Shown piece by piece: positions 542 to 33,647 of a DNA stretch of 35,221 nt. This DNA is from Candidatus Cacconaster equifaecalis (lineage in GTDB: Bacteria; Bacteroidota; Bacteroidia; Bacteroidales; UBA932), in contig JAGHVE010000004.1 of assembly GCA_018064445.1 (NCBI GenBank), positions 1 to 35,221 of the forward strand. Reading direction: 5' to 3'. The notes beneath the pieces were generated by a model. That model saw nothing but the letters and a program-made list of their open reading frames with translations, searched no databases and was not told where the DNA came from. Made by a program: the position numbers and the translations under genes. How positions within the stretch are numbered: the stretch's first letter is position 1; each line of letters opens with the position of its first letter.

Positions 542-3160
542 ATGACATCAAAAGAAATCAGAAAAACCTTCACTGACTTTTTCGCTTCAAAAGGTCACAC
601 GATAGTATGTTCGGCCCCTATGGTGGTCAAGAACGACCCTACCCTGATGTTCACCAACGCAGGTATGAACCAGTTCAAGGATATCTTCCTCGGAAACGCA
701 CCGGCTGTGCACAAGCGTGTGGCCGACAGCCAGAAATGCCTCCGCGTCAGCGGAAAACACAACGACCTGGAGGAGGTTGGACACGACACTTACCATCACA
801 CGATGTTCGAGATGCTCGGAAACTGGAGTTTCGGGGATTATTTCAAGAAAGAGGCCATAGCCTGGGCGTGGGAGCTGCTTACGGAAGTCTACAAATTGCC
901 GAAAGAGAGGCTGTATGCCACCGTTTTCGAAGGTTACGCCCCTGACGGACTGGAGGAGGACACCGAGGCCAGGGAGTTCTGGCTGAACTACCTTCCTGCA
1001 GACCACATCATTCCCGGTGACAAGCACGACAATTTCTGGGAGATGGGAGACACCGGTCCGTGCGGACCCTGCAGCGAAATTCATATCGACCTGCGCTCGG
1101 AGGAAGAGATTGCGAAGGTTCCCGGCACGGAAATGGTCAACAAGGGGCATCATCTCGTCATCGAGATATGGAACCTCGTCTTTATGCAGTTCAACCGCAA
1201 GGCCAACGGCTCCCTGGAACTGCTCCCTGCAAGACACGTCGATACAGGAATGGGCCTTGAGAGGCTCTGTATGGCGCTTCAGGGGAAGAAGAGCAACTAT
1301 GACACCGATGTCTTCACCGGGATGATAGGAAAAATCTCCGAACTCAGCGGAAAGAAGTATGAGCAGGAGACACAGGTTGGCGTGGCGATGAGAGTGATAG
1401 CGGACCACATCCGTGCAATCAGTTTCTCCATCACCGACGGTCAGCTCCCCAGCAACGTCAAGGCCGGATATGTAATCCGACGGATTCTCAGGCGTGCAGT
1501 GCGCTACGGATATACGTTCCTCGGTTTCAAGGAGCCGTTCCTCTGCCGCCTCGTGCCGCAGCTCATCAGTGATATGGGAGAGGCATACCCCGAACTGAAG
1601 GAACAGCAGCAACTCGTGCAGAAGGTCATCAAGGAGGAGGAAGATGCGTTCCTCCGCACTCTTGACAAGGGTATCAAGCTGATGGACAGCATAATGGAGA
1701 AATCCAAAGGCACGAAGGTGATTGCCGGCACGGACGCTTTCACCCTGTACGATACGTTCGGATTCCCCATCGACCTGACGGAACTTATCGCCGGGGAGAA
1801 CGGATATACCGTCGATATGGAGGGGTTCAACGTCGAACTGGGCAAGCAGAAGGAACGTGCCCGCAACGCCACCGCAATCGAGAACGGTGACTGGGTGAAT
1901 GTGCATAACATTGAGAACGTGGAATTTACCGGATATGACGGCACTTCGCTGGAAGGAGCCCTGCTGGCCCGTCACAGGGTTGTCAAGGCAAAAGGCAAGG
2001 AATTCTGCCAGATAGTGTTTGACCGCACACCGTTCTACGGTGAGATGGGAGGCGAGGTAGGAGACAGCGGATATATGGTTTCCGCTTCCGGAGAAAAGAT
2101 ATCCATAGTGAACACAGTCAAGGAGAACAACCTGACAATCCATATAGCGGAGCGCATACCTGCAGACTGCAACGGGACTTTCACCCTTGTGGTCGATGCC
2201 GCCAGAAGGCAGGCGATTTCAAACAACCACAGCTGCACTCACCTTCTGCACCAGGCACTCCGCGAAATTCTCGGCACTCACGTCGAGCAGAAAGGTTCGT
2301 TCGTCTGTGACAAATATTTCCGTTTCGACTTCTCGCATTTCGAGAAGATGTCCGATGAGCAGCTACGACAGGTGGAGAAGAGGGTGAACGGACTGATTCG
2401 ACTGAACAATCCTCTCCAGGAGAACCGCAACGCCACGATGGAGCAGGCCCGCCAGATGGGGGCGATGGCTCTTTTCGGTGAAAAATACGGTGACAGGGTG
2501 AGAGTTGTCCGTTTCGGGGAGAGCGTCGAACTCTGCGGAGGCTGCCATACGGGTGCAACCGGAAATATCGGTCTGTTCAAGGTCGTTTCCGAAAGCGCGG
2601 TGGCGGCGGGAATCAGGAGAATCGAGGCTGTTACCGGAGTTGAGGCTGAAGCGATGGTCGACAATCTTCAGGATACCGTCAGGACAGCCCGTTCCTTCTT
2701 CAACAATGTACCCGACCTTGCCGGAGCCATCAGGAAGATGGTTGAGGAAAACGAGGCATACAAAAAACAGATGGATCAGATTGCAAAGGAGAGGACCCTC
2801 GCCTTCAAGAAGTCCCTCGTGGAGGGAGCCAAAGCCGTGAACGGTCGCAACATAGTGGAACTCAGCGGCACTGACGTAGACTTCGGTATGCTCAGGAACG
2901 CTGCGGTGATGCTCCAGAAAGAGGTTGAGAATCTGGTGATTGCCGCGGCTCTTCTTACGGCGGGCAAACCCCAGCTGCTGCTGATGTACAGCGCTGATCT
3001 GGTCGCCGCGGGGAAGAATGCACAGACCGACATCAAGGATGCCGCCAGACTCATTCAGGGCGGTGGCGGAGGAAATGCCTCCCTCGCCACGGCGGGCGGC
3101 AAGGATGCGGACTCCCTTTCCGCCGCATTGGAGACACTCAAGACCCTCGCTCTCAAATAA
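542..3160 (+). CDS. alaS: Alanyl-tRNA synthetase
   Basis: AlaS charges tRNA-Ala with alanine in the cytoplasm and edits Ser- or Gly-mischarged tRNA. The 872-residue length is normal for bacterial AlaS. The class II catalytic core is N-terminal, with the motif [11 protein letters not shown] near residue 38. The editing domain is shown by the zinc-site histidines in HSCTHLLH near residue 562 and by CGGCH near 665, followed by GNIG and RIEAVTG. The last ~150 residues contain a coiled segment and the glycine-rich [10 protein letters not shown] of the C-Ala domain. The ATG start follows a short 20-nt gap after the permease. The stop TAA is in the same frame as the next gene, 6 nt before its GTG start. 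Confident call. Confidence 0.98.
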
Positions 3161-3166
3161 CAGGTT

Positions 3167-5596
3167 GTGAAGAAACTTGACAGACACCTCATACTCGCGT
3201 TCATAGGACCGTTCTTCGCAGTCCTGCTCGTCGTCACGTTCGCCCTCTCCCTGCAGTTTCTCTGGAGGTACATCGACGAACTGGTCGGCAAGGGGCTGGG
3301 GCTCGGAGTCATCCTGGAATTCCTGGGATGGGGTGCCTGTACGCTGCTTCCCCTGTCAATGCCCCTCGCATCCCTGCTGGCCTCCATAATGACGCTCGGA
3401 GGACTTGGGGAACACAACGAACTGCTGGCGATGAAGGCGGCCGGAATATCTCTCCAGAGAATCCTGATGCCCGTGATAATAGTGTCAGCTGCAATCAGCA
3501 TAGGGGCGTTTTTCGTGGCGAACAATCTGGTGCCGCTCTCCTACAACAAGATATACACCTTGAGGGAGGACATTGCGCGCACGAAGGAGGAAATCAAGAT
3601 ACCCTCCGGAACATTCTACGACGGAATCGACGGATATGTCATGAGAATCGAATCGGTGGATGACAACGGGATGATGCACAATCTCATCGTGTACGACCAC
3701 ACCTCTATCAACGGCGGAAATACCAAGATGACGCTGGCCGATTCCGGTTCCATCCGCATCACTCCCGACAAGAAAAACCTGATATTCGACCTTTACGACG
3801 GATGCTCGTACGAAGAGACGAACACTATGAATTACAGGGACACCACCCTGCAGCTGAGCCGTGCGAAATTCAACCGCCAGAATCTGATAATCCCTCTTGA
3901 AAACTATGGTTTCACCCGTTCCGGAGAAGACCGGTACGGTGACGAGGTGATGTCCAAGGGGCTGAGAACCCTGAGACAGGACAGGGATTCCCTCCAGCGT
4001 GTGTTTGACACCCTCATCACAGCCCAGCACAGGCGTTTTCTGTACAGCTCGGGGCTTACTTTCGCCAACCAGTTTGACAGCGTGAGCGTGGCGAAAAGGC
4101 ATATCAGCGGAAAGATAGATTTGGAGATTCTTTATGAAAAAGATTCTCTCGAACTGAGGAGAAGCGCCGTCCGTTCGGCGGCAGACCGTTCTTCCAACAC
4201 GGACGAGATGCTGGAGACATTCGGACGGGAAGGGGAGAGATACGTCATTCCAACCCGCAGGATAGACATAGAAAGTTTCCGCAAGTTCACCCTTTCCCTC
4301 GCCTGCCTGCTCTTCTTCTTCGTGGGGGCTCCGCTCGGGGCAATCATCCGCAAGGGAGGTCTCGGGACGCCGGTAATCATTTCGATATTCTTCTTCATCG
4401 TATATTACATCATCGACACCATCGGGAAGAGGCTTGCCAACAAGGGGGCGATCACGCCGTTCGAAGGTACGATAGTCTCGACGCTCGTCCTCCTGCCCAT
4501 AGGCATATTTCTTATGAGAAAATCAACTCAGGATTCCGGCCTGTTCAATCTGGATACCTACAGGGACTGGATCAAATATTGGACAAGGAAAGTTGTCAAG
4601 GTCTACCACAGGACTCTCAACCGGTTCAGCGGCAAAGGCGCGAAAATCAGGATTGTCTATATGGGAACCCCGGAATTTGCCGTGGCTCCGCTGGATGCCC
4701 TGATGCACAGTGAATTCGAGGTGGTGGGAGTTGTCACCGTGGCGGACAAGCCGAGCGGAAGGGGGATGCAGGTCAACCAGAGTGCGGTAAAGAAATATGC
4801 GGTTGAGAACAATATTCCGGTCCTGCAGCCGGTGAGCCTTAAAGATCCGGAATTCCTGGCACAACTCGCCTCGTTCAATGCCAACGTGTTTGTGGTGGTG
4901 GCCTTCAGGATGCTGCCAAAGGAGGTCTGGTCGATGCCTGCCCTTGGAACCTTCAACCTCCACGCCTCCCTTCTCCCGCAGTACAGGGGTGCGGCTCCGA
5001 TCAACTGGGCGATAATCAACGGTGAGAAGTTCACCGGAGTGACGACGTTTATGATAGACGAGCAGATAGATACCGGTAAAATCATATATCAGGAGGCCTG
5101 TTCAATCGAGGATTACGATGATGCCGGTTCCCTCCACGACAAACTGATGAAGATGGGTAGCGCACTTGTTCTCAAGACGGTCGATGCAATTGAGAACCGC
5201 TCTGTCAAGCTGCAGGAGCAGGTGATGCCCTTCAACCGTGCGCCGCGTGTCGCTCCCAAACTGACCAGGGAGACAGGAAAGATAGACTGGAGCGCCGGCG
5301 CAAGGGTCGTCAATCTCCTCATAAGGGGTCTCAGCCCATATCCGGTTGCGTACTCGACATTGGTCTTTGAAGATAAAGTCTTGAATGTAAAGATATTCGA
5401 GGCATACGCAGTGAGCGATAACAATTATTCCGTCCCTGAAGGGACCATCCGTACCGACGGGAAGAGTTTCCTCGAAGTCAAGTGCGGCAGCGGTGCCCTG
5501 CGCATTCTGAGCCTGCAGCTTGCAGGGAAGAAACGGATGGATGTGGCGGCATTCCTTGCCGGTTTCAGGGATATTGAAAATTACAGGTTCGTCTGA
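3167..5596 (+). CDS. LptG permease - methionyl-tRNA formyltransferase fusion (LptG-Fmt)
   Basis: One uninterrupted 809-residue ORF joins two usually separate proteins. Residues 1 to about 470 are an LptF/LptG (YjgP/YjgQ) permease, part of the transporter that lifts LPS from the inner membrane. It has membrane segments near 8-30, 48-75, 98-120, 371-391, 396-413 and 426-446, the loop GGLGEHNELLAMKAAGIS, and a periplasmic domain between. Residues about 493-809 are a complete Fmt, which formylates initiator Met-tRNA: YMGTPEFAV at 498, FNLHASLLPQYRGAAPI at 596 with N597 and H599, and the Asp in IDTGK (D635). The GTG start is the first possible start after an in-frame TAA. No in-frame ATG, GTG or TTG lies in the linker from 4541 until the ATG at 4661, which would remove the first Fmt strand. 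The LptG C-terminus is cytoplasmic, so the fusion is topologically sensible. Confidence 0.93.
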   Translation: MKKLDRHLILAFIGPFFAVLLVVTFALSLQFLWRYIDELVGKGLGLGVILEFLGWGACTLLPLSMPLASLLASIMTLGGLGEHNELLAMKAAGISLQRILMPVIIVSAAISIGAFFVANNLVPLSYNKIYTLREDIARTKEEIKIPSGTFYDGIDGYVMRIESVDDNGMMHNLIVYDHTSINGGNTKMTLADSGSIRITPDKKNLIFDLYDGCSYEETNTMNYRDTTLQLSRAKFNRQNLIIPLENYGFTRSGEDRYGDEVMSKGLRTLRQDRDSLQRVFDTLITAQHRRFLYSSGLTFANQFDSVSVAKRHISGKIDLEILYEKDSLELRRSAVRSAADRSSNTDEMLETFGREGERYVIPTRRIDIESFRKFTLSLACLLFFFVGAPLGAIIRKGGLGTPVIISIFFFIVYYIIDTIGKRLANKGAITPFEGTIVSTLVLLPIGIFLMRKSTQDSGLFNLDTYRDWIKYWTRKVVKVYHRTLNRFSGKGAKIRIVYMGTPEFAVAPLDALMHSEFEVVGVVTVADKPSGRGMQVNQSAVKKYAVENNIPVLQPVSLKDPEFLAQLASFNANVFVVVAFRMLPKEVWSMPALGTFNLHASLLPQYRGAAPINWAIINGEKFTGVTTFMIDEQIDTGKIIYQEACSIEDYDDAGSLHDKLMKMGSALVLKTVDAIENRSVKLQEQVMPFNRAPRVAPKLTRETGKIDWSAGARVVNLLIRGLSPYPVAYSTLVFEDKVLNVKIFEAYAVSDNNYSVPEGTIRTDGKSFLEVKCGSGALRILSLQLAGKKRMDVAAFLAGFRDIENYRFV

Positions 5597-6444
5597 TGAT
5601 TGACCTGCCCTTTTCCGAGTTCGGATTCCTTGATTTCGGGGCGGTCGGTGTTCACAGGGCCTCCGAGGTGGAGCAGACCTATCTCCACTGCCTTGAAAAG
5701 GGGTATTTCGCGCAGATGTCATATCTCTCCCGCAATCTTGAAAAGAGATTCGACCCCACTCTTCTGGTGGAGGGTGCGCAGACGGCGCTCTGTTTCCTTG
5801 CCCCATACGGAAAGCCTGCGGGGGGCGTGGCCGGGTTCGCCTGCGGGAGAGACTATCATAAAGTTGTCAGGGACAAGCTGTTTCAGGTCATTTCCTTTCT
5901 CAGGGAACAGTCCCCTGATTTCAAGGGACGTCCGTTTGTTGACAGCGCCCCTCTGCTTGAGCGTTACTGGGCGGCCGGGGCAGGACTCGGGTTCATCGGC
6001 CGGAACAGGTTCCTGATTTCTCCCGTATGGGGTCTGAGGACAATTATCGGGGTGATTCTGTGCAATGTTCCCGCATCTGAATTTCCGATGCACTCTCCTC
6101 TTGAAGTCAGGGATTGCGGCCATTGCGGCCGATGCGTTTCCGCCTGTCCGGGAGGTGCGCTTGACGACCCCTGCGGATTGGATGCCGGAAAGTGCGTGTC
6201 CTACCATACGGTGGAGGCCGCCCCGCAGGAGACTCTGCCTGAGGTGGATTGCCGCGGCTGGGTTTTCGGATGCGAGGAATGTCTCAAAGTTTGTCCGTGG
6301 AACAGGGATATCCCTTCCTGGCCGGAATTCGAAACACACAGGACTCTGCTGGAAAATACCGACTGGAGAGCCCTGTCCGATGAAGAATTTCAGGCTCTTC
6401 TCGGAGATTCGGGACTGATGCGTTCCCGCAGGTTTGGAATATAA
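5596..6444 (+). CDS. queG: Epoxyqueuosine reductase
   Basis: QueG carries out the last step of queuosine biosynthesis, reducing epoxyqueuosine in the tRNA anticodon with a cobalamin cofactor and two [4Fe-4S] clusters. Visible are an N-terminal QueG-type domain, the segment GAGLGFIGRN near residue 130, and the two cluster motifs CGHCGRCVSACP (about 175) and CEECLKVCPW (about 225). At 282 residues it is shorter than the E. coli enzyme because the C-terminal helical-repeat extension is missing, as in many other phyla. The start overlaps the stop of the LptG-Fmt ORF (TGATG), which points to translational coupling. Firm call. Confidence 0.93.
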   Translation: MIDLPFSEFGFLDFGAVGVHRASEVEQTYLHCLEKGYFAQMSYLSRNLEKRFDPTLLVEGAQTALCFLAPYGKPAGGVAGFACGRDYHKVVRDKLFQVISFLREQSPDFKGRPFVDSAPLLERYWAAGAGLGFIGRNRFLISPVWGLRTIIGVILCNVPASEFPMHSPLEVRDCGHCGRCVSACPGGALDDPCGLDAGKCVSYHTVEAAPQETLPEVDCRGWVFGCEECLKVCPWNRDIPSWPEFETHRTLLENTDWRALSDEEFQALLGDSGLMRSRRFGI

Positions 6445-9534: not shown

Positions 9535-11025
9535 ATGGCCAGGACCGTTGACAAGAAGAAGCCCGAGAAGGTGAATATCGGCGCCATCGGAGAGGAGATG
9601 GGAGGGCTGAAGCCCCCTCAGGCGATTGATATTGAGGAAGCCGTGCTTGGAGCCCTGCTTCTCGAGCCGAATGTCGTTCCCGATGTCCTGGACCAGATTC
9701 AGTCCGATTGCTTCTACAAGGATGCCCACAGGAAGATATTCGAGGCCATCGCGAAGCTGGCCGGAAGGAATGACCCCGTCGACATCTTCTCCGTTGCCGA
9801 CGAGCTGACCAAGTCCGGTCTGCTGGAGGAGGTCGGAGGAATGGCCTACCTGAGCCAGCTCTCCACCAAAATCGGGGCGGCGGCTCACGTCGAGTATCAT
9901 ACCAAGGTCCTTCTTCAGAAGTTCATCCAGAGGGAGCTGATAACAATTTCGTACGATATCCAGAAAAAGGCTTTCGACGACAGCCTGCCAGTGGATGACC
10001 TTGTGGACAGCGCGGAGCAGAGTATCTTCAACCTCGCCGAGCGCAATATGCGCAGCGAGACTGAGACGATCAAGAGCATCATCAACCAGGCGATAGCGGA
10101 GATTGAGGAGAACCAGAAAAGGGAGGACAGCCTGAGCGGCGTACCTTCCGGATATACCGGCATCGACAAGGTGACTTACGGATGGCAGAAAGCCGACCTG
10201 ATCATTCTCGCGGCCCGTCCATCCGTCGGCAAGACGGCGTTCGTCCTGACGATGGCAAGGAATATGGCTGTCGACTACAACGTGCCCGTGGCGTTCTTCT
10301 CTCTCGAAATGCCTGCCACTCACCTTGTCAAGAGATTGATGGTCAGTGAAACGGGCCTTGGCACCGACAAGATAAGGGGCGCGAAAAAAATGACCCCCGA
10401 TGAGTGGACCCAGTTGAACCAGGGACTCAACAATCTTTCCCAGTCACCGCTGTGGATAGATGACACTCCGTCCCTCTCGATTTATGAATTCCGTTCCAAG
10501 GCAAGGCGTCTGGTCGAAAAGAACAACGTAAGACTGATAATCGTCGATTACCTTCAGCTTATGGCCGGTCCTCCCGAGCTGCGCGGGATGCGTGAACAGG
10601 AGGTTGCCTCCATCAGCCGTTCGCTCAAGGCGATAGCCAAAGAGTTGAAAGTCCCCATCATAGCCCTGTCCCAGCTCAGCCGTGCCGTTGAGACCAGGGG
10701 CGGCAACAAGCGTCCCCAGCTGAGCGACCTCCGTGAGTCGGGAGCCATAGAGCAGGATGCGGACATAGTGATGTTCATCCACCGTCCCGAGTATGTGGGT
10801 GTTCAGGATGAGGCATCGTTCCCAGGTGAAACGGACGTGATTATCGCCAAGCACCGAAACGGTGAAGTCTGCGACGTGAAGATGAGATTCCTGGCCTCCG
10901 AAGTCAGGTTTGTCGACGTCAATGACGGAGAATCCTACTACGATGGAGAAGGACAATATACGCTGACCCAATCAGGACTCAATTCCATAGATGATTTCGG
11001 TCCCGGCAATGAATTCGAACCTTAG
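9535..11025 (+). CDS. dnaB: Replicative DNA helicase DnaB
   Basis: DnaB is the hexameric 5'-3' helicase at the replication fork. At 496 residues it is of normal length. The N-terminal primase-interacting domain covers about residues 22-125. The RecA-like ATPase follows, with Walker A in ARPSVGKTAF (about 225-235), FFSLEMP, Walker B in LIIVDYLQLM (about 332-341), LSQLSRAVE, and LRESGAIEQDAD. No intein is inserted at the usual sites. The ATG at 9535 lies 4 nt after the zinc-ribbon gene. Confident call. Confidence 0.97.
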   Translation: MARTVDKKKPEKVNIGAIGEEMGGLKPPQAIDIEEAVLGALLLEPNVVPDVLDQIQSDCFYKDAHRKIFEAIAKLAGRNDPVDIFSVADELTKSGLLEEVGGMAYLSQLSTKIGAAAHVEYHTKVLLQKFIQRELITISYDIQKKAFDDSLPVDDLVDSAEQSIFNLAERNMRSETETIKSIINQAIAEIEENQKREDSLSGVPSGYTGIDKVTYGWQKADLIILAARPSVGKTAFVLTMARNMAVDYNVPVAFFSLEMPATHLVKRLMVSETGLGTDKIRGAKKMTPDEWTQLNQGLNNLSQSPLWIDDTPSLSIYEFRSKARRLVEKNNVRLIIVDYLQLMAGPPELRGMREQEVASISRSLKAIAKELKVPIIALSQLSRAVETRGGNKRPQLSDLRESGAIEQDADIVMFIHRPEYVGVQDEASFPGETDVIIAKHRNGEVCDVKMRFLASEVRFVDVNDGESYYDGEGQYTLTQSGLNSIDDFGPGNEFEP

Positions 11026-11038
11026 AAATTGTTTTGAA

Positions 11039-11905
11039 ATGAAGAAACTATCCCTCTTGACTTTTTTTCTTGCGGCAGTGGCTTTCACTGACCTCGCCCA
11101 TTCTCAGGAACTGCCCTTCACGGGAGGCGAGAGCCTGGAGTATGTCATTACCTACAAGGCCCTCTTCACGGCGGATATGGTGCGCGTGAGTCTTGATCTC
11201 ACATCCGAAAAGGACCCTCAGAGAGGAGATGCATTCCACGCAGTCACCAAGATAACGACTTTCAAGTTCTGGGACTCCTTCTACAAGATGCGGGATACCT
11301 ACGAGACCTGGTTCCGCAGCGATGCATCCATCTCTCCCATCCGCTTCCACAGGGATGCCCACGAGGGAAAGAGTTACAATTCGGAGTCCTGGCTCGACTG
11401 GTCCGAGGATTTGTCGCAGGCCAAGGTGAAGATTGAGAAGGACGGAAAGCCTGTCAAGGACACGGTCTTCAGCGAAGAAGGCGTTCTCAGGGACATAATC
11501 AATGCCCTTTATCTGGCCCGCATTCTGGATTACGACCAGATGCAGAGCAGCGGCAAGCCCTTCGAGGTGACGATGACCCCCTACCGCGACATACTGAAAC
11601 TGCGGGTCCGCTTCGTCGGCAAGGAAGAAGTTTCCGCAGGCAAGGCGGGCAAGTTCAAGGCCCTTAAACTTGCATTGGCAATCACGCCCAAGGATACCGA
11701 CAACAGCGGCAGCGGGTTCAAGATCGGCGCTTCCGAGAACGGTACATACGAAAACGGGGAAAAGATATTCCTCTGGGTCAGTGACGATCAGAACCATATT
11801 CCGGTCTATTTCTCCGCTCCCGCCTCAATCGGCTCCATAAAGGGGAAACTGTCCCAGTACAAGGGTTTGAAATACGAATTGAGCAGCAAGATAGCGAATG
11901 AATAG
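11039..11905 (+). CDS. DUF3108 domain exported protein
   Basis: The track starts this ORF at 10991, but the ATG at 11039 begins a good signal peptide (MKKLSLLTFFLAAVAFTDLAHSQ), so that start is preferred; it gives 288 residues and avoids overlapping dnaB. The mature protein begins ELPFTGGESLEYVITYKALF and continues with a beta-rich DUF3108 pattern, including YETWFRSDASISPIRF and the late IFLWVSDDQNHIPVYF. DUF3108 proteins are periplasmic or envelope proteins without a settled function. The 3' end overlaps rseC by 8 nt, which suggests coexpression with the rseC/rnf genes. Confidence 0.82.
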   Translation: MKKLSLLTFFLAAVAFTDLAHSQELPFTGGESLEYVITYKALFTADMVRVSLDLTSEKDPQRGDAFHAVTKITTFKFWDSFYKMRDTYETWFRSDASISPIRFHRDAHEGKSYNSESWLDWSEDLSQAKVKIEKDGKPVKDTVFSEEGVLRDIINALYLARILDYDQMQSSGKPFEVTMTPYRDILKLRVRFVGKEEVSAGKAGKFKALKLALAITPKDTDNSGSGFKIGASENGTYENGEKIFLWVSDDQNHIPVYFSAPASIGSIKGKLSQYKGLKYELSSKIANE

Positions 11906-30635: not shown

Positions 30636-33600
30636 ATGAGGGGCATCCTGTCGGAAAGACTGAAAGTTATGATAATCTGTGGGCTGTGCGCGATGTTTGC
30701 GCCGGCCCGCAGTTTCGTCGTTCCCGCCCAGACCGTGTATCAATACAAGACGGATGATGCCACCATCTGTTTCTTCGACAAGAACCAGTCTCAGTACATT
30801 CCTCATCTTATGAGGAAATATGAGTTGGGAAAAGAACTGCACCGTCAGATATGGGACACGATTCCTTCCCAGTCCCCTTTTATGATGCTGACGGACTGGC
30901 AGGATGACGGAAATGCGGGAGTCGGGGTACTGCCGCACACCACAATTCAGGTGAATCTCGCCCCGATGAATATGGCCTATTTCGTATCGCCTTCCAATGA
31001 ACGGTTTGACCATCTCTTCAAGCACGAGTACACCCACGTGGTGATGGCGGACAAGACGAATGACCGGGATATGGGATGGCGGCGATTCACCGGCAACAAG
31101 GTGGTGCCGAATTCAAAATATCCTCTCAGCGCCCTGTGGAGTTACCTTGATGCTCCAAGATGGTATGCCCCCAGATGGTATCACGAGGGCATCGCCTGCT
31201 TTATGGAGACCTGGCTCGGAGACGGGGTGGGGAGGTCTCTCGGAGGCTATGACGAAACCTATTTCCGTACACACATCAAGGAGGGGGAGGAACTTTATTC
31301 GGTGGTCGGCCTGGAAACGGAGGGCACGACGTCCGATTTCCAGCAGGGTGCGACCTCTTACCTTTACGGAACAAGGTTCGTCAACTATCTGGCATACGTC
31401 TATGGCTATGAGAAGTTGATTGATTTCTACAACAGGACGCAGGACAGCCGCACGTTCTATGCAAAACAGTTCGAAAAGGTGTATGGCAAGTCCCTCCGCA
31501 CCGTGTGGAAGGAGTGGGAGGATTTCGAGAAAGAGTATCAGCGGCAGAATCTTGAGAAGCTGGCGGAGTACCCCCTGACGGAGTGCAGGCAGATGGTCGG
31601 GAAGAATCTCGGCGCCACATCACCGATTATCTACGATGAGGAGGCGGGGGAGGCTTTCGCCGCAGTCTACTTCCCTGGAAGCCCCGCGCAGGTTGTCAGA
31701 TTCCCTTTGGACACTGCATCCGGTACTCTGGGCAAGATGAAGAAGCTGGCGGAGATCGACGGTGTCCAGGCCTATCAGACTGCGTACATCGCTTACGACA
31801 GGCGCGGGCGCAGGCTCATCTGGACGGACAGGAATTCAAAGATGCGCGGACTTGTGGTGTATGACCTCAAGCGGGGCAGGGTGGAGAAGAGGCTGAAATA
31901 CCAGCGTGTGTACGACATCTGCTATGACAATGCGGGCGACTGTATGTATGGTATCATCAGCAATCAGGGCATCTGCCACCTCGTCAGATATGATTCCGCA
32001 CTTGAGGAGAGAGAACTCATCTACAGTTTCCCTTTCGGAGTGAGCGTGAGCGACTTGGACGTATCTCACGACGGAGAGAAGATAGTGATGTCCGTCCTTG
32101 GCAAGAAGGGGGAACATTCGCTGATAATGTTCAGGCGGTCTGACATCGAGAACTCCAATTACGAATATCAGACTCTTTATTCTTTGGAAGACTCCAACCT
32201 GAGCCAGTTCCGCTTCAGTCACGATGACAGCAGACTGGTCGGATTCAGTTACTACACCGGTGTCCCCAACATCTGGACGCTTGATCTGGAATCCTGCAAG
32301 TTCGACCTGCTTTCCAACGTCCAGACCGGCCTGTTCGCACCGTATCTTGCCTCGAACGGCAGTGTCTATGCGCTTGAGTATGGTTCTGACGGGATGACTC
32401 CGGTCCGGTTCGAATACAAGGTGCTTGAAGATGCCAACAGTGTGGAATTCCTGGGACAGAAGGCTTTTGAGACCAATCCCGGCCTTGCCGAACTCTCAAC
32501 TCTGAAGAAGCCTGTGGAGGAAATAGGTTTCGGTGAGGTCTATGATTCGGTGAAGGTATATAAACCGTTCAGGGAAATCAGGTTCCAGGGGGCCTATCCG
32601 GATATCAGCGGGTTCACGGACAAGGAGGGGTGGAACAAGATGACACCGGTTCTCGGCTATCATTTCGCGTTCTACGACCCGCTGTCCCTTTTTTCCGTCA
32701 ATCTGTTCGTGGGGGCTTCTCCGTGGAGTCACAACGACTGGAAGAACAAGTTTCACGCGAGCGCCGAGATAAAATACTGGCAGTGGACTCTCAACGCGGC
32801 CTGGAACCCGACCAGTTTCTATGATCTGTTCGGCCCCAGACGCTCCTCCAGGAAAGGCTATCACGTCGCTCTTGGATATGATTCCAAGCACACGATGCAA
32901 TATCCCTTCACCTGGGACTGGGGTGCCTCAATCGCGCATTATGGAGATATGGATGCGTTGCCTCTCTATCAGGAGATTACAACCGACGTTCACTCTTTCC
33001 AGACAGCGGATGTCTATATAAAGGGCGGCAAGGTACGCGGCTCCATCGGGTCGGTTGCGGCCGAAAAGGGATACCGTTTCTCAGCCGAAGGCTATACCTA
33101 TCTGGCGGACGGGAAATTCTTCCCTTCCCTGGAAGTGTCGGGAGATGCCGGATTCCTGCTGCCCGTCGGCAGACATAATTCATTCTGGTTCAAGGGTTCT
33201 GCCGGCCAGTCGTTCGGGGACCGCGGCTCTGCCTTCGGGAACACCTATTTCGGCGGTTTCCGCAACAACTTCGTGGACAACGGTGAGGTGAACAGGTACC
33301 GGACCGTCAATGCAATGCCTGGTGCGAATATCGACCAAATCGGTGCCCACTGCTATCTGAAAGCGACCGGGGAAATCAATTTCTGCCCCATCCGGTTCAA
33401 CAATTTCGGAGCCTTGCAGTGCTATCCCAACTACATTCAGTTCTGTCTGTTCGGACACGACCTGGCAACGGACCTGTGGGGTGACGGCAGGGAATTCAAG
33501 GCAAATTATGTCAGTGCAGGAGCCCAGATGAACATTCAGATGGTCTTCTTCACCCATATGAAGACCACTCTTTCCTTCGGGTATGCCAGAGTCTGGGGCG

Positions 33601-33647
33601 GCGGTCTCAACCAGGGTGATTTTATGTTCTCCCTGAAGTTGCTGTGA
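30636..33647 (+). CDS. Exported gluzincin-motif / beta-propeller / outer-membrane barrel-like protein
   Basis: This is a 1003-residue exported protein. An N-terminal signal region (about residues 10-32) is followed by a metallopeptidase-like part with HEYTH (130-134) and, 50 residues later, WYHEGIACF with E184 as candidate third zinc ligand, the M1-like gluzincin (Peptidase_MA) arrangement. Residues ~325-620 show repeats such as LIWTDRNSKMRGLVVYDL and IVMSVLGKKGEHSLIMF, fitting a TolB-like beta-propeller. From ~650 to the end, alternating aromatic strands (YHFAFYDPLSLFSVNLFVGA, FGNTYFGGFRNNF) suggest an outer-membrane barrel. APRWYAPRWY is a small internal duplication just before the catalytic Glu. 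The substrate is unknown. The domain boundaries come from pattern reading only. Confidence 0.8.
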   Translation: MRGILSERLKVMIICGLCAMFAPARSFVVPAQTVYQYKTDDATICFFDKNQSQYIPHLMRKYELGKELHRQIWDTIPSQSPFMMLTDWQDDGNAGVGVLPHTTIQVNLAPMNMAYFVSPSNERFDHLFKHEYTHVVMADKTNDRDMGWRRFTGNKVVPNSKYPLSALWSYLDAPRWYAPRWYHEGIACFMETWLGDGVGRSLGGYDETYFRTHIKEGEELYSVVGLETEGTTSDFQQGATSYLYGTRFVNYLAYVYGYEKLIDFYNRTQDSRTFYAKQFEKVYGKSLRTVWKEWEDFEKEYQRQNLEKLAEYPLTECRQMVGKNLGATSPIIYDEEAGEAFAAVYFPGSPAQVVRFPLDTASGTLGKMKKLAEIDGVQAYQTAYIAYDRRGRRLIWTDRNSKMRGLVVYDLKRGRVEKRLKYQRVYDICYDNAGDCMYGIISNQGICHLVRYDSALEERELIYSFPFGVSVSDLDVSHDGEKIVMSVLGKKGEHSLIMFRRSDIENSNYEYQTLYSLEDSNLSQFRFSHDDSRLVGFSYYTGVPNIWTLDLESCKFDLLSNVQTGLFAPYLASNGSVYALEYGSDGMTPVRFEYKVLEDANSVEFLGQKAFETNPGLAELSTLKKPVEEIGFGEVYDSVKVYKPFREIRFQGAYPDISGFTDKEGWNKMTPVLGYHFAFYDPLSLFSVNLFVGASPWSHNDWKNKFHASAEIKYWQWTLNAAWNPTSFYDLFGPRRSSRKGYHVALGYDSKHTMQYPFTWDWGASIAHYGDMDALPLYQEITTDVHSFQTADVYIKGGKVRGSIGSVAAEKGYRFSAEGYTYLADGKFFPSLEVSGDAGFLLPVGRHNSFWFKGSAGQSFGDRGSAFGNTYFGGFRNNFVDNGEVNRYRTVNAMPGANIDQIGAHCYLKATGEINFCPIRFNNFGALQCYPNYIQFCLFGHDLATDLWGDGREFKANYVSAGAQMNIQMVFFTHMKTTLSFGYARVWGGGLNQGDFMFSLKLL

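Follow-up and report, generated by a model that had tools for sequence, protein, structure and literature searches.

An LptF-like permease joined in frame to methionyl-tRNA formyltransferase in Candidatus Cacconaster and related Bacteroidales

In the genome of Candidatus Cacconaster equifaecalis, a lipopolysaccharide (LPS) export permease and methionyl-tRNA formyltransferase (Fmt) are encoded by a single open reading frame (ORF), and the same joined frame is carried by a group of uncultured gut Bacteroidales that comprises many species. Fmt, which readies the first amino acid of each new protein, is described in textbooks as a soluble enzyme that acts in translation initiation. By ORF reading and profile searches of the window, i.e. 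the whole 35,221-nucleotide stretch of DNA that was analysed, 809 codons were found open in one frame, in which Pfam places LptF_LptG at residues 6-452, Formyl_trans_N at 495-670 and Formyl_trans_C at 698-801, all well above their cut-offs (Table 1). These results bear out the original prediction of an in-frame fusion in which the domains of both partners are complete. Furthermore, the same fused ORF was recovered from related genomes, where 66 distinct fused homologues, belonging to Candidatus Cacconaster (GTDB family UBA932) and to further genera of UBA932, could be read without a single stop, their linkers varying in length by whole codons alone. At the sequence level, the recurrence of the joined frame in 66 sequences confirms the fusion as real and beyond chance. 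We consider it likely that the product is one uncleaved protein, an LptF-like exporter subunit that carries the only Fmt of the cell facing the cytoplasm.

Table 1. Coordinates of the fused gene, its parts and the genes discussed with it (window positions unless another contig is named)
Feature	Position	Strand	Remarks
LptF-like permease - methionyl-tRNA formyltransferase ORF	3167..5596	+	809 aa, GTG start, TGA stop
LptF/LptG-type permease domain	3182..4522	+	six hydrophobic helices, beta-rich periplasmic domain (PF03739, hydropathy)
Linker, residues 453-494 (~40 residues)	4523..4648	+	net positive, predicted helix 462-488, no ATG/GTG/TTG
Fmt catalytic domain (Formyl_trans_N)	4649..5176	+	N597, H599, D635; R532 in tRNA-contacting loop
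Fmt C-terminal domain (Formyl_trans_C)	5258..5569	+	Pfam
alaS, upstream neighbour	542..3160	+	TIGR00344, 869 bits; 6 bases ahead of the fused gene
queG-like gene	5596..6444	+	TIGR00276, 179 bits, cut-off 200; start overlaps the fused-gene stop by one base
Second Lpt permease, LptG-like	L175:887-1981 (own-genome contig C100)	-	adjoins tgt

The permease half scores 232.5 bits with the LptF/LptG permease domain profile PF03739, the cut-off of which is 27.9 bits. It had originally been labelled LptG, a name that did not hold up: the fused permease scores 145.9 bits with the curated LptF model (TIGR04407, 230 needed) against 109.3 bits with that of LptG (TIGR04408, 240 needed), its top solved structural relatives are LptF chains, and an LptG-like permease is encoded elsewhere in the genome. 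By these comparisons it is LptF-like rather than LptG, and we name it LptF-like only, because the curated LptF cut-off is not reached. It has been reported that a glutamate of the coupling helix, E84 in LptF and E88 in LptG, is strictly conserved and couples the permeases to LptB (PMC5082905). In the fused permease, E85 aligns to position 84 (E84) of the LptF chain 6mit_F, and is invariant in 54 fused homologues.

The formyltransferase half passes the Fmt equivalog model TIGR00460 with 240.7 bits (cut-off 201.5). The catalytic residues N597, H599 and D635 lie exactly where the original prediction had put them, and are invariant in the 54 fused homologues. The GRG motif of the Fmt loop aligns with that of 1fmt, and its R532, the counterpart of E. 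coli R42, which we take to be the arginine of the tRNA-contacting loop, is likewise invariant in these 54 sequences; the C-terminal domain is also present. A Foldseek comparison of the modelled Fmt half with the E. coli Fmt-tRNA complex 2fmt gave a TM of 0.91.

In an AlphaFold2 run on the 54-sequence alignment of fused homologues, both halves fold well (mean pLDDT 81.6), and the linker forms a helix (462-488, pLDDT 61-68) that leads to the first strand of Fmt (495-500). The pTM of 0.50 leaves the relative placement of the halves loose, and no reliable contact between the permease and Fmt halves is seen in this model. Hydropathy analysis gives six hydrophobic helices, and the tail behind them is basic, with a net charge of +5 (mean of the set +5.7); because of these two features, the C-terminus, and hence Fmt, would fit on the cytoplasmic side of the membrane, which supports the cytoplasmic location originally proposed. 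Between fused clades, as in L117, L118 and L128 compared with L132-L138, the linkers differ strongly in sequence and length (26 to 43 residues by alignment), the net charge being always positive.

An untranslated stretch is expected to show a dN/dS near 1. Across 23 pairs of related species, dN/dS was 0.23 for linker residues 453-492 and 0.26 for residues 470-492, where the permease gave 0.22 and Fmt 0.15; the linker value is approximate, since the pairs were chosen by similarity, a few of them being distant, and the number of linker codons compared was small (898). Because its dN/dS of 0.23 is like that of the permease, the linker is read as translated and under protein-level selection. In addition, synonymous change is not suppressed in the linker (pS 0.45, versus 0.44 in Fmt), and therefore nothing indicates a hidden nucleotide signal.

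The source genome is a fragmented metagenome-assembled genome (MAG) of 161 contigs, in which two LptF/LptG permeases were found, i.e. the fused one and one of 364 residues beside tgt. The latter scores 184.7 bits as LptG versus 118.9 as LptF, with the curated cut-off unreached. Both Lpt permeases adjoin queuosine-pathway genes, the LptG-like one tgt and the fused one the queG-like gene, whose product has 282 residues and scores below the QueG cut-off. A second Fmt was sought in the source assembly (88.6% complete) and none was found, the sole other formyltransferase domain being that of PurN beside purM; the relatives likewise show the joined gene only. Peptide deformylase is present in the source genome. 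As the fused gene encodes the only Fmt found and one of just two Lpt permeases, both halves are presumably needed. Elsewhere in the window, a 304-aa ORF at 10991-11905 has no NCBIfam match, and a 1003-aa ORF at 30636-33647 has a weak match to Peptidase_MA_2 only.

Since the window comes from a 161-contig MAG, one might suspect that two genes were joined by an error of sequencing or assembly, but we give this next to no probability, and for the clade it is ruled out, because the joined frame is carried by 66 distinct homologues, which come from many separate assemblies and have several in-frame linker lengths. It is also unlikely, though much less so, that free Fmt is made from the joined frame in addition to, or even mainly instead of, the fused protein, through initiation within the linker at a rare start codon, or through linker proteolysis. 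The linker is basic and is the part of the model with the lowest confidence, so that it may be cut, and at least one ATG, GTG or TTG is found somewhere in it in 51 of the 66 fused frames (none in the other 15); an ATG lies at -15 to -6 in 11 of the 66, and one is close to the Fmt start in L130, L135 and L136. These codons, however, stand at no conserved position, whereas in 38 of 39 unfused relatives the fmt ATG is found 5-12 codons ahead of the MGTP motif, and the A-rich stretch that lies 11-14 bases 5' of the separate fmt starts in UBA932 is absent from the fused genes. The unsuppressed synonymous change of the linker argues in the same direction. In the window itself, no in-frame ATG, GTG or TTG occurs between the ATG at 4514 (residue 450), which sits in the last membrane helix of the permease, and the ATG at 4661 (M499), in agreement with the start-free interval from 4541 to 4661 described originally. 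It had also been claimed that a start at 4661 would cut off the first strand of the Fmt fold, and indeed M499 is located inside strand 495-500, so that most of this strand would be lost. With start positions that vary, ATG codons that are rare and the A-rich signal gone, a conserved internal Fmt start was ruled out.

One pathway of LPS modification employs a formyltransferase, ArnA, and one could imagine that the formyltransferase half has been repurposed in an ArnA-like manner, as a sugar or lipid A formyltransferase acting on the cargo of the exporter. The two are homologous, but the fused protein scores 159.4 bits of the 777 required by the curated ArnA model, while it passes the Fmt equivalog cut-off and keeps both the GRG motif of the Fmt loop with R532 and the Fmt C-terminal domain; moreover, the genome would then be without Fmt despite its retained deformylase. 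We regard such a change of function as very improbable.

We thus favour a single uncleaved permease-Fmt protein. Its N-terminal half would be an LptF-like subunit of the LPS exporter, with six inner-membrane helices and both ends in the cytoplasm, predicted to form LptB2FG with LptB and the LptG-like permease, which has its own gene elsewhere. Its C-terminal half would be the sole Met-tRNA formyltransferase of the cell, hung from the exporter by a basic, probably helical linker, and would formylate initiator Met-tRNA at the membrane surface. From the sequences we infer that the protein escapes cleavage in the cell, that each half is active and that the location is the membrane. The fusion itself is most likely a tolerated, selectively weak result of the tight alaS-lptF-fmt-queG operon, and the fused gene most likely also sets the ratio of Fmt to LptF at 1:1. 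A functional coupling of Fmt and LPS export is possible, and the fusion may have a regulatory role. Adaptive tethering, by which the supply of formylated initiator tRNA would be linked to envelope assembly, or initiation would be placed near the inner membrane, could explain the repeated fixation in one family, and appears to us distinctly unlikely.

The nearest named relatives of the source genome are Candidatus Cacconaster MAGs, a genus that was named from horse faeces and corresponds to GTDB Bact-11 in family UBA932, order Bacteroidales (PMC8957277). Among the 60 relatives searched, the full joined frame is stop-free in 33 of the 36 same-genus genomes, and the remaining three have no match over the fused gene, possibly through assembly gaps. 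Across 200 UBA932 genomes, the fusion was also found in genera g40, g30, g28, g47, g41, g31 and g27 and in one g48 genome, while genera g29, g36, g46, g37, g43 and g39 have two separate genes. Outside UBA932, samples of 393 Bacteroidales and 395 Bacteroidia genomes yielded no fusion under strict E-value limits, which distant independent fusions could escape. Butyricimonas appeared fused by match span and was rejected, since its two genes are out of frame. The original view that the two genes are normally separate and adjacent agrees with what is seen in the unfused relatives.

A tree of the permease and Fmt sequences (59 rows, 778 columns, linker excluded) needs four changes between the fused and unfused states, at least three of them on well-supported branches, a count that by itself fits gain and loss alike. 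A single origin of the three large fused clades was rejected (p-AU 0.0002); holding the first two, clades A and B, together is allowed (p-AU 0.55). Because the outgroups are all unfused, and because the two genes lie in different frames and overlap or abut each other in several of the closest unfused relatives (L157, L161 and L163), the simplest reading is that the fusion was probably gained about three times independently within UBA932, by stop loss or indel. Stop loss, the route suggested originally, thus stays one of the possible routes, but a frame-shifting indel is as likely, given that the overlapping or abutting genes are in different frames, and the fusion arose more than once. In genus g48, the single genome L183 is fused, and L180 and L181 are split out of frame; the fusion may be recent here, or one of these MAGs may contain an indel from sequencing.

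Both parts of the protein belong to known families and their arrangement is the new element; no description of a fusion between LptF or LptG and Fmt was found among open-access papers. If our reading is true, a whole bacterial group makes Fmt only as the tail of an LPS-export membrane protein, which would mean that Fmt can do without being a free cytosolic protein; nature would here have united the initiation of translation and the construction of the outer membrane in a single polypeptide. In addition, the repeated fusion in one family makes its cause, be it operon layout or selection, accessible to comparative testing.

The fused permease resembles the LptF of LptB2FG (PF03739; TIGR04407) in its six hydrophobic helices, its periplasmic domain and the glutamate at the E84 position. 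It differs in exceeding the length of the solved LptF chains by about 90 residues, in falling below the curated LptF cut-off and in bearing a C-terminal Fmt. The Fmt half shares with E. coli Fmt (TIGR00460; 1fmt/2fmt) both domains, the N-H-D residues and the arginine of the tRNA loop, with ~37-39% identity in structural alignment and the close structural match to 2fmt (TM 0.91); however, it has no start of its own, and its N-terminus runs on into a membrane permease. The separate lptF-fmt pairs of other UBA932 genera and of Butyricimonas have the identical gene order, with overlapping or abutting genes, and differ from the fused gene in the stop or frame change between the two genes and in the normal ATG of fmt.
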